A DNA stretch of 64,000 nt from Candidatus Latescibacterota bacterium (GTDB lineage: Bacteria > Latescibacterota > UBA2968), in the NCBI GenBank assembly GCA_022823725.1, contig JAJEHL010000041.1, positions 62,001-126,000 of the forward strand, given 5' to 3'. A program made the translations under genes and the position numbers. Of this stretch, positions 2,986-7,049 are shown piece by piece. The first letter of the stretch is position 1; each line of letters begins with the position of its first letter. Below the pieces are notes generated by a model that was not told the origin of the DNA, searched no databases, and saw only the letters and a list, made by a program, of their open reading frames with translations.

Positions 2986-4560
2986 ATGCGCTTCTTCAAC
3001 ACCGCTGGCCCTATAAAGCCCGAGAGGCACTATTGCATCCCGCCTTTGGAGCGCTTAAATATGGATGAGGTGCTCGCGCTCATCCGAGACGAGAAATACT
3101 TTGTCTTGCACGCGCCTCGGCAGACGGGGAAGACTTCTGCCTTGCTGGCACTACGCGATTTGCTCAATGCTCAAGGTACCTATCGTTGTGTTTACGTCAA
3201 TGTCGAAGGTGGACAAGCCGCACGCGAAGATGTGGAACAGGTGACGCGCGCCTTTTTGGGTGAGTTGGCATCTCGGGCGCGTTTAGTGGGTGACGAATTT
3301 CTGGACGAGATCTGGTTCGACATCCTGGCGAAATACGGGGGCCATGTTGCCTTGCGCGAGGCGTTGACGCGCTGGGCACAGGCTGCTCCAAAGCCATTGG
3401 TGCTGCTCATTGACGAGATCGATGCTCTGATCGGCGATTCTCTGCTGTCCGTGCTACGGCAGTTGCGGGCTGGCTATGACCTTCGCCCGGAGGGTTTTCC
3501 GCAAAGTGTGGTGCTGTGTGGGGTGCGCGATGTGCGCGATTACCGCATCCAATCAACAGCAGAGAACGCGATCATTGCCGGTGGCAGTGCATTCAACATT
3601 CGCGCCGAGTCTCTGCGTCTGGGGGACTTCTTACAGGACGAGGTATTCGATCTCATCGCACAGCACACAGCAGAAACGGGACAGACATTCACAGCCGAGG
3701 CACTGGAGACAATCTGGATGCAGACCCGGGGACAACCGTGGCTGGTCAATGCATTGGCTTATGAAGCTTGCTTTAAGAACAAGACCGGGCAGGATCGCAG
3801 CCAGCCCATTACAGCCAACGCGATATGCGACGCACGGGAGCAACTCATCTTGCGCCGAGAGATACACCTTGACCAGTTGGCCGACAAATTGCAGGAAGAA
3901 CGCGTACAGCGCGTGATTGAACCGCTGCTGAGTGGGGCTGAGGAACGTCGCTTTATTGACCGCGACCTGGAGTATGTACGCGATCTCGGTCTTGTGGCTC
4001 AAGATTTGCCGTACCGCATTGCCAATCCGGTCTATGCCGAAGTCGTGCCGCGCGAACTGACGTGGGTGTTACAGGGAGAGTTTGAGCAGGAAACCGCATG
4101 GTATATCAATGCCGATGGTAGCCTGAATGTGGTCAAACTGATGACCGAGTTTCAGACCTTTTTCCGCGAACATTCAGAGCACTGGGTGAGACGATTTCAA
4201 TATCAGGAAGCCGGTCCGCAGTTGTTGTTGCAGGCATTTCTCCAGCGGATTGTGAACAGCGGTGGACGCATTGAGCGGGAGTATGGGTTGGGACGTGGAC
4301 GCACCGATCTGCTGATTGTCTGGCCGCAGGGCGATGAGACGCGCAAGATTGTGATTGAGTGCAAAATTCTCCACAAGGGCCTGGAGCAGACCATTGCCGA
4401 GGGTTTGGAACAGACGGCGGAGTACATGGATCGTTGCGATGCAGAGGCGGGTCATCTGGTGATTTTTGACCGCCGTGAAGGGAGGCGTTGGGCGGACAAA
4501 GTATTCCGCGATAGTCGGACATCAAGTAGCGGGGTCGAGATTGAGGTGTGGGGAATGTGA
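2986..4560 (+). CDS. AAA-like ATPase with C-terminal PD-(D/E)XK nuclease domain
   Basis: A 524-residue two-domain protein. Residues about 20-300 form an AAA-like P-loop domain: Walker A 'APRQTGKTS' (GK at 48-49) and Walker B 'LVLLIDEID' (D143, E144). The C-terminal 90 residues carry a PD-(D/E)XK nuclease signature, 'GRTDLLIV' (D441) then 'IVIECK' (E458, K460). Such ATPase-nuclease proteins occur in many copies in uncultured and sulfate-reducing bacteria and are often suspected of mobility or defence; no function is proven. It lies alone between two copies of a direct repeat that correspond to the start of the next gene, which suggests it arrived as a cassette. Confidence 0.8.
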   Translation: MRFFNTAGPIKPERHYCIPPLERLNMDEVLALIRDEKYFVLHAPRQTGKTSALLALRDLLNAQGTYRCVYVNVEGGQAAREDVEQVTRAFLGELASRARLVGDEFLDEIWFDILAKYGGHVALREALTRWAQAAPKPLVLLIDEIDALIGDSLLSVLRQLRAGYDLRPEGFPQSVVLCGVRDVRDYRIQSTAENAIIAGGSAFNIRAESLRLGDFLQDEVFDLIAQHTAETGQTFTAEALETIWMQTRGQPWLVNALAYEACFKNKTGQDRSQPITANAICDAREQLILRREIHLDQLADKLQEERVQRVIEPLLSGAEERRFIDRDLEYVRDLGLVAQDLPYRIANPVYAEVVPRELTWVLQGEFEQETAWYINADGSLNVVKLMTEFQTFFREHSEHWVRRFQYQEAGPQLLLQAFLQRIVNSGGRIEREYGLGRGRTDLLIVWPQGDETRKIVIECKILHKGLEQTIAEGLEQTAEYMDRCDAEAGHLVIFDRREGRRWADKVFRDSRTSSSGVEIEVWGM

Positions 4561-4621: not shown

Positions 4622-4681
4622 AGAGAGAGGATGAAAATGGATGCAAAAACCAAAAAGTTACAGGTCGATCAGGCTGTGAAA
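4622..4681 (+). repeat. Imperfect direct repeat, copy 2 (intact start of M20 gene)
   Basis: The matching partner of 2914-2972. It includes the ribosome-binding site GAGAGG and the first 15 codons of the M20 amidohydrolase. The two copies flank the ATPase/nuclease gene, 1.7 kb apart. Confidence 0.65.
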
Positions 4682-5959
4682 TCGCAGTCGCGGCGGGCGT
4701 TTAAGCTGTCGCGGAGTATTCACGGCTGGGCAGAGCGACCGTTTCAGGAATACGAGTCGTCGAAGGCATTGGCGGCGTATTTGGAGGAGAATGGATTTCA
4801 GATTGAATTTCCATTCAAAAATATCCCGACGGCTTTTCGCGCTATATGGGGGGAGGGTAAACCCACTATTGGCATGTTGGGAGAGTACGACGCATTGCCC
4901 AATTGCGGTGCTGAGGAGGGCACCTGGGGCCATGGCTGAGGTCATAATCTTTTGGGCGTTGCCCCGGCCGCAGGTGCGGTTGCTGCAAAGACAGTATTGG
5001 AAAACTTGAAGTCGTCCGGTCAGATTATTTATTACGGCTGCCCGGCTGAGGAGACCCTGGCGGGCAAGGTGTATATGGCTCGCGATGGCGCGTTTCAAGA
5101 TTTGGATGCGGTGCTGGCCTGGCATCCGGGATCGAGTACGGGTGTTAGCAATTATGGTGGTTCGTCACTGGATTCGCTGGTCTATGAGTTTTTTGGCAAG
5201 ACGTCTCACGGCGCGAGTGCTCACAATGGGCGCAGTGCATTGGACGGGGTGATGTTGATGGATGTTGCGGCGAATTATTTGCGCGAGCACGTTCCCGAAA
5301 ATGTGCGTATTCACTGCGTGATTCGGGACGGTGGGGATGCGCCCAATGTGGTTCCGGCTTATGCGAAGGTGTGGTACTATGTGCGGGGGAAGGATCGTGA
5401 ACAGGTCAATGAAATACGCAAGCGATTGACCAGGTGCGCCAAGGGTGCGGCGATGGCTACGGAAACGACTGTGAAATGGCATCGTATTACTGCTGTGTAC
5501 CCGCGTTTGCCCAATGATGTGATGTGCGAAACCGTGCGTCAAAATCTCAAATTATTCGGTCCGCCGCGCGCTTCTAAAAAGGATAAGGAACGCGTAGTGG
5601 AATTGGGATACAAAGGTGAATTTGACGGGAAGATCAAAAAGGGGAAGGGGTCACAGGGTCGCGGGTCTTCAGATGAAGATAATGTGTCATGGCTGGCGCC
5701 GATGGGTCGGTTTCAGATGGTGTGTTATACAAAAGGCACGCCAGGTCATCACCGGGATATGACCGCACAGGCGGTCATGCCTTATGCCGAGCGCGCAGTT
5801 TTGCAAACGGCCAAGGTGTTTGCGGGATCGGCTATTGATCTGATTTTGGACAAAAAGCTGTTGCAAGCAGCATGTGCGGAATTTAAAAAGGGAACGAAGG
5901 GGTTTAAGTACGATCCGCTGATTAAAAAAAAGCAAAAGGTCCCTGTGGATCCTCCGTAA
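4637..5959 (+). CDS. M20 family amidohydrolase (AbgB-like), in-frame TGA at conserved Cys
   Basis: A 440-codon frame with one internal TGA at codon 101 (4937-4939). Both sides are in the same frame and align without gap to AbgB-type amidohydrolases. The expected motif is 'GHGCGHNLLG'; here the Cys codon is TGA, giving HG-(TGA)-GHNLLG. In M20 enzymes this loop contributes to the dinuclear metal site. Downstream motifs are intact: 'GCPAEETLAGK' (metal-ligand Glu) and the dimerisation lid 'KTSHGASAHNGRSAL'. The ATG at 4637 is 6 bases after GAGAGG. The family hydrolyses N-acyl or p-aminobenzoyl-glutamate-type amides in the cytoplasm. Either the TGA is read (selenocysteine) or the gene is a recent pseudogene or sequence error; annotation programs would split it into 4637-4939 and 4952-5959. 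Confidence 0.75.
4954..4983 (+). promoter_or_regulatory. Possible SECIS-like hairpin after TGA
   Basis: Beginning 14 bases after the TGA are a short GGGC/GCCC stem and then a CCGC-AGGT-GCGG hairpin (4968-4979) whose loop starts 32 bases after the TGA and has G at its second position. Bacterial SECIS elements are apical stem-loops about 16-37 bases after UGA with a G in the first loop positions, so the geometry is compatible. GC-rich coding DNA makes such hairpins by chance, so this is weak evidence. Confidence 0.25.
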
Positions 5960-5982: not shown

Positions 5983-6056
5983 CCCACCCAACTGCTATCG
6001 TAGATGAACTGGTCTGGAAAACGGCCAGTTGTACCCCTTCCACAGAGGAGATGGTT

Positions 6057-7049
6057 GTGAAAGCACAACGATTAATATGTACAGATGTCCGGCGGATTGA
6101 ATTGGAAGACTTTGATTTGCCGCGTGTGCCAGACAATGGCATTTTGGTGCAAAACGATTATACCGCCGTGAGCGTTGGCACGGAAATTTACAATTATGCA
6201 CATGGTGGTGAGCCGTCGCGTGCGAGGACATTTCCTCGGCCAACGGGATATTGCAATACAGGTGTGGTGCTCGAGGTGGGCAAAGATGTGAAGGGGATAG
6301 AATCAGGTGATCGCATTGCCGCGCAGGGCAATCACGCCAGTCACGCGGTTATGAGTGGGAATTTTTTTAGAGTGCCCGAGGGTGTTTCGCCCAGGTCGGC
6401 GGCTTTTATGGTTATGTGTGCTATTGCCATGCACGGGCATCGGGTTGGTCGTCCGGAGTTGGGTGAGGTTGTGGCTATTACTGGTATGGGTATTGTGGGG
6501 CAATTGGCAGCGACCTTTGCGCGGTTGGCTGGCGCATTCCCGGTTATTGCGATTGATCTGGATGATTTTCGGTTGGGTAAAGCGAGGGACAGGGGGGCAG
6601 ATGTTTGTATTAATCCCAATACTGCAGGGGATGTCGCCGAAGCCGTGCGCGAGCATTGCGTGGGTGATGGGGTCGATCTGGTCATTGAAGCGACGGGTAT
6701 TCCCGCGGTTTATCCCATGGCGCTGACTTTGCCCCGATTGGGTGGCCGTCTGGTCGCGCTGGGGTCTCCGCGGGGGACCGTGGAAGTGAGTTTTTTGCCC
6801 GAGATTCACTTGCGCGAGATTACGATTCTGGGCGCGCATCAGCCCAAGACGCCGGATAATGACCATATTTATTATCCGTGGAGCAAGAGTAGAGACCGCG
6901 AGCTAATTTTGCGTTTGATGGCTGCGGGCAAGTTGTCCATTGAGGATCTGATTACCCATATCGGGAATCCCGCCGATTGCCAGACTATCTACGATATGCT
7001 CGCCGATAATCCCAAAGAAGTGTTGGGCGTGGTGTTTGAGTGGGTTTGA
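6057..7049 (+). CDS. Medium-chain dehydrogenase/reductase (zinc alcohol dehydrogenase-like)
   Basis: About 330 residues of the MDR fold: an N-terminal GroES-like domain ('VSVGTEIYNY...') and a Rossmann domain with 'ITGMGIVGQLAA' near residue 145 for NAD(P) binding. The usual catalytic zinc Cys is replaced in 'VSVGTE', as in the BchC/threonine-dehydrogenase-like subgroup that occurs beside sugar or cyclitol catabolism genes. The GTG at 6057 is preferred over the ATG at 6051 because GAGGAG (6045-6050) directly abuts that ATG and is 6 bases from the GTG. It follows the M20 gene by 97 bases. The substrate cannot be told from sequence. Confidence 0.8.
   Translation: MKAQRLICTDVRRIELEDFDLPRVPDNGILVQNDYTAVSVGTEIYNYAHGGEPSRARTFPRPTGYCNTGVVLEVGKDVKGIESGDRIAAQGNHASHAVMSGNFFRVPEGVSPRSAAFMVMCAIAMHGHRVGRPELGEVVAITGMGIVGQLAATFARLAGAFPVIAIDLDDFRLGKARDRGADVCINPNTAGDVAEAVREHCVGDGVDLVIEATGIPAVYPMALTLPRLGGRLVALGSPRGTVEVSFLPEIHLREITILGAHQPKTPDNDHIYYPWSKSRDRELILRLMAAGKLSIEDLITHIGNPADCQTIYDMLADNPKEVLGVVFEWV

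Follow-up and report, generated by a model that had tools for sequence, protein, structure and literature searches.

A gene in the window (the whole stretch of 64,000 nucleotides analysed here, from a draft assembly of a Candidatus Latescibacterota bacterium in 51 contigs) is predicted to encode a selenocysteine (Sec) form of an M20D metallo-amidohydrolase or dipeptidase close to HmrA and PM20D2. We put the probability of this reading at about 95%. According to it, UGA codon 101 is decoded via tRNA-Sec and SelB together with a downstream hairpin, and the encoded Sec replaces the cysteine of the GHxCGHN motif. The features at this locus are as follows.

4637..5959, plus strand: predicted M20D amidohydrolase selenoprotein gene, 440 codons including Sec, stop TAA at 5957-5959
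4919..4948, plus strand: metal-site motif region around WGHG-U-GHN, with Sec101 and His103 as predicted metal ligands
4937-4939, plus strand: TGA predicted to be recoded as Sec101 (counted from ATG 4637), at the invariant-Cys site of GHGCGHN
4965..4982, plus strand: predicted bacterial SECIS hairpin, with a 7-bp stem (4965-4971/4976-4982) and loop AGGU (4972-4975), 32 nt after the TGA
6051..7049, plus strand: MDR/zinc-type dehydrogenase gene (Pfam ADH_zinc_N)

Gene structure and protein identity

An original prediction, made from the sequence of the window, had pointed to a reading frame that continues on both sides of TGA codon 101 without a shift, and to a motif that departs from GHGCGHN at the Cys codon only. 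Both points hold. The frame runs from ATG 4637 (an alternative in-frame start, ATG 4631, is possible) and stays open past the TGA up to TAA 5957-5959, while the residues around the TGA read WGHG-TGA-GHNLL. Standard ORF calling splits the gene into two fragments, one stopping at the TGA and the other restarting past it. Among the TGA-interrupted frames of the window, none comes close to the M20 gene in the length of the stretches that stay open before and after the TGA with matching codon composition (159 + 340 codons).

The read-through protein matches Pfam M20_dimer and the amidohydrolase model TIGR01891 (5.5e-59), where its 200 bits against a curated cut-off of 153.75 correspond to a member of the M20D family. 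Its nearest solved relatives by sequence are HmrA (3ram) and human PM20D2 (7yh4), and an AF2 model of the Cys form has a mean pLDDT of 95 and a TM score of 0.91 to 3ram by target length. The predicted catalytic and ligand residues D85, H103, E138, E139, H163 and H371 are invariant in 47 sequences that include Sec and Cys forms, and positions 101 and 103 are invariant among the 47 homologues. In place of the metal-liganding Cys that M20D enzymes carry in GHxCGH, this gene has a UGA; Sec would be the chemical substitute for this Cys, and we therefore call the protein a variant of M20D.

The dehydrogenase gene lies just downstream of the M20 gene in most loci from the same family, other genera included. 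Some relatives, but not others, have an AAA ATPase gene (window 2986-4560) between a beta-lactamase-fold gene and the M20 gene.

Conservation of the in-frame UGA

A search of 64 genomes of the phylum yielded 24 close orthologues, and in 23 of these TGA is present at codon 101 as the sole internal stop, at protein identities of 71-100%. The remaining close orthologue, from genome G057 (66% identity), has TGC at this codon. More distant homologues, including those of Planctomycetota, Kiritimatiellota and Chloroflexota, all have Cys at the site. This distribution agrees with the expectation of the original prediction that Cys homologues would be found at the Sec site, and a check of the close orthologues for other nonsense mutations, which it had proposed, revealed none in any of them. 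Conservation in 23 of 24 close orthologues from separate assemblies excludes a chance occurrence of the TGA. Nearly all sequences compared derive from assemblies of uncultured bacteria.

In a midpoint-rooted protein tree, for which the Sec residue was entered as missing data, the 22 full-length Sec sequences form one clade with support of 95/97, and the G057 sequence branches beside this clade with weaker support (84/44). Given that the Sec forms make up one clade, a single change from Cys to Sec appears to be the simplest history. Within one class, several genera and families have kept the Sec state. An exact motif pattern run over 386 genomes gave only 23 matches, all of them members of the phylum, and a scan of GTDB contigs returned only Cys homologues outside the phylum, with one of its six patterns fixing Cys and thereby biasing the scan against distant Sec forms.

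In one family (f4, G039-G063) the Sec M20 gene has a patchy distribution, which suggests loss or transfer: three genomes of a single genus carry it, and most of the others with selA do not. As a further observation on the orthologues, all 22 full-length Sec forms terminate in TAA or TAG and never in TGA, which is the commonest stop of long frames in the window.

A constrained hairpin downstream of the UGA

The hairpin CCGC-AGGT-GCGG described in the original prediction, with its loop 32 nt after the TGA and a G at the second loop position, is present, and its stem extends to 7 bp. Its suggested compatibility with a bacterial SECIS was assessed against published constraints (PMC13188914), namely a stem of 4-16 bp, a loop of 3-9 nt, a G among the first two nucleotides of the loop, a spacing of 16-37 nt and an MFE of at most -7.5 kcal/mol. 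With 7 bp, the 4-nt loop AGGU, a spacing of 32 nt and an energy of -9.3 to -11.4 kcal/mol, the hairpin lies within every one of these limits.

The stem is preserved in every Sec orthologue counted. Moreover, synonymous divergence at codons +6 to +13 past the TGA is 0.031 versus 0.49, the lowest value in the gene (rank 1 of 433 windows along it), while in four groups of Cys homologues the same codons are no more conserved than the gene average. The freeze at synonymous sites is thus confined to Sec forms, and it indicates that the predicted SECIS is under selection at the nucleotide level in these genes. Within the hairpin element, all Sec forms have Pro at +9 (CCG) and none of the nearest Cys forms does, as if the RNA element constrains the protein at this position.

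Thermodynamic stability of the hairpin is unremarkable, with z values of -0.9 to 0.8 relative to dinucleotide shuffles. When the same peptide was recoded synonymously 300 times, 193 of the resulting hairpins were at least as stable. Two-sided covariation was not seen in the stem, where no pair changes on both sides and five of the seven pairs never vary. With stability unremarkable and covariation uninformative, the case for a SECIS rests on conservation.

Selenocysteine machinery in the same genome

The search for sel genes recommended by the original prediction recovered the complete set of selA, selB, selD and tRNA-Sec. The tRNA-Sec scores 68.5 bits and has a UCA anticodon, and selA (576 bits) adjoins selB (396 bits) on one contig. 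The selD gene (TIGR00476, 373.6 bits) has an in-frame UGA of its own.

L009:8620-9663 (G000:C25), minus strand: selD, N-terminus VSCGG-UGA-ASK, with a hairpin loop GGU downstream of the UGA

The tRNA-Sec gene, on the same strand, follows directly after the selD stop. SelD is among the established selenoprotein families (PMC13188914), and the UGA in selD therefore represents an independent Sec UGA in this genome. A search with RF00031 gave no match here and none in control genomes either, so this search is uninformative.

Among the 23 genomes with the TGA form, selA was found in 22. The exception, G032, has tRNA-Sec, and selA and selB were not found in its draft assembly of about 430 contigs. 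In G057, which carries the TGC form and whose genome is 86% complete, selA, selB and tRNA-Sec were not detected. The sel machinery, the TGA/Cys orthologues and the constrained hairpin together lend support to the first of the options put forward in the original prediction, a new selenoprotein family member.

Proposed mechanism and role of Sec101

In the mechanism that we propose, SelB with tRNA-Sec would deliver Sec at UGA codon 101, and the in-frame hairpin 32 nt downstream would direct decoding of this codon. Sec101, His103 and Glu/His residues would then coordinate the metal centre, with Sec101 probably bridging a binuclear metal site as a cysteine does in CsAga. In this M20D aminoacylase the cysteine bridges two zinc ions (PMC11511702), which makes a selenolate metal ligand likely in the predicted hydrolase as well. 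In the plant M20D hydrolase PpILR1, the Cys137Ser substitution abolished hydrolase activity (PMC8149794). The predicted ligand role is based on homology, on the M20D literature and on the AF2 model of the Cys form, and the presumed equivalence of the residues on the shared GHxCGH motif as aligned to HmrA, PM20D2 and YxeP.

Since the other predicted active-site residues are unchanged, hydrolysis is probably retained in the Sec form, and the enzyme would cleave an amide or peptide bond, for example in an N-acyl amino acid or a dipeptide. A ligand that is softer and more acidic, or one that resists permanent oxidation, would be a plausible benefit of selenium. On balance we favor the view, held with less confidence than the assignment of the gene, that the encoded Sec supplies a selenolate ligand, probably a bridging one, to the metal centre in the active site of a hydrolase, by which the use of Sec would be extended from redox chemistry to metallo-hydrolysis.

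Alternative explanations

Selenium might matter chiefly as a switch, such that the UGA mainly limits expression when selenium is low and Sec offers no catalytic advantage over Cys. Any Sec UGA makes the full-length product dependent on selenium, and there are Cys enzymes whose active-site residues are the same, whereas the retention of Sec in multiple genera and families within a class speaks against control as its main value. We consider such a purpose unlikely, and it would in any case be compatible with Sec decoding in an M20D enzyme rather than exclusive of it.

A role in redox chemistry or metal handling, taken on by the Sec enzyme in place of hydrolysis, is somewhat less probable still. 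In its favor, the majority of known prokaryotic selenoproteins are thought to have functions related to redox chemistry or metals (PMC13188914). However, the residues predicted to form the hydrolase active site do not vary among Sec and Cys forms, and the surroundings of Sec101 hold no redox motif of the CxxU/UxxC type.

UGA readthrough can happen without Sec machinery. A near-cognate or suppressor tRNA, or a general reassignment of UGA, could in principle insert another residue such as Trp or Cys at codon 101, but several observations render this improbable. The 46 open frames of at least 250 codons in the window (overlapping frames included) end in TGA 21 times, in TAA 15 times and in TAG 10 times, and UGA is therefore a common stop, as the original prediction had noted. 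In addition, Sec machinery is present, its absence coincides with a Cys codon in G057, every homologue that lacks the UGA has Cys at the site, and a SECIS-like constraint exists.

The ordinary use of TGA as a stop elsewhere in the window would also suit a nonsense mutation in a decaying gene, an option raised in the original prediction that the comparative data contradict. The same codon is TGA in 23 genomes, down to 71% identity, with no other stop in the gene, and synonymous sites are frozen just downstream. Only one pair has unsaturated dS; its dN/dS is 0.108 before the TGA and 0.057 well after it, and dN is low in the remaining pairs; because dS is saturated in most pairs, these ratios are used as a trend only. 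Where measurable, the values indicate that purifying selection acts on both sides of the TGA and continues past it, which leaves a pseudogene very improbable. Least credible is an error of sequencing or assembly in the Cys codon, another option of the original prediction; although the window comes from a draft, separate assemblies share the same TGA, including the two single-contig assemblies G037 and G038.

Relation to known systems

The M20D enzymes HmrA (3ram), human PM20D2 (7yh4), CsAga (6slf) and ILL2 (1xmb) have in common with the window protein their fold, membership in TIGR01891 and the predicted active-site residues. The window protein differs from them by a UGA, predicted to encode Sec, in place of the GHxCGHN Cys and by an overlapping SECIS-like element. 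With FdhA and SelD, selenoproteins of the UGA/SelB/bSECIS kind, it would share the Sec decoding machinery, a downstream in-frame hairpin with a G[G/U] loop and the existence of Cys homologues, but it belongs to a hydrolase family and lacks a redox motif.

Sec serves as an active-site metal ligand in [NiFeSe] hydrogenase and in Sec formate dehydrogenase (PMC13188914), as proposed here for the window protein. Those enzymes are redox catalysts that use Ni or Mo/W, whereas the window protein is a predicted hydrolase whose metal centre would be of the Zn or Mn type. YgeY offers a different parallel as a member of the M20 superfamily with a genomic association with selenium; it has been linked to selenium-dependent molybdenum hydroxylases, and PMC2276186 names it only as an M20 hydrolase in a list of co-occurring genes. 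The window protein has no match to the YgeY model NF009555.

A 2026 inventory comprises 119 prokaryotic selenoprotein families or subfamilies, among which an M20 entry is absent (PMC13188914). No dedicated selenoprotein model is found among the NCBIfam matches to the window protein, and we found no Sec-containing M20 protein in the literature, as covered by open-access papers. A paper on Campylobacter avium, considered as a lead to selenium, was dropped because it reports that selenium metabolism is absent. The protein is best called a new selenoprotein family, a variant of the M20D enzymes that is apparently unlisted.

Because a Cys orthologue occurs in a relative without detected Sec machinery, and because the switch to Sec appears to have happened once, pairs of Sec and Cys enzymes can be used to test what selenium adds. 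Prokaryotic selenoproteins, known or predicted, are for the most part thought to be redox enzymes, while this family would put Sec at the site of a predicted metal ligand in a hydrolase.
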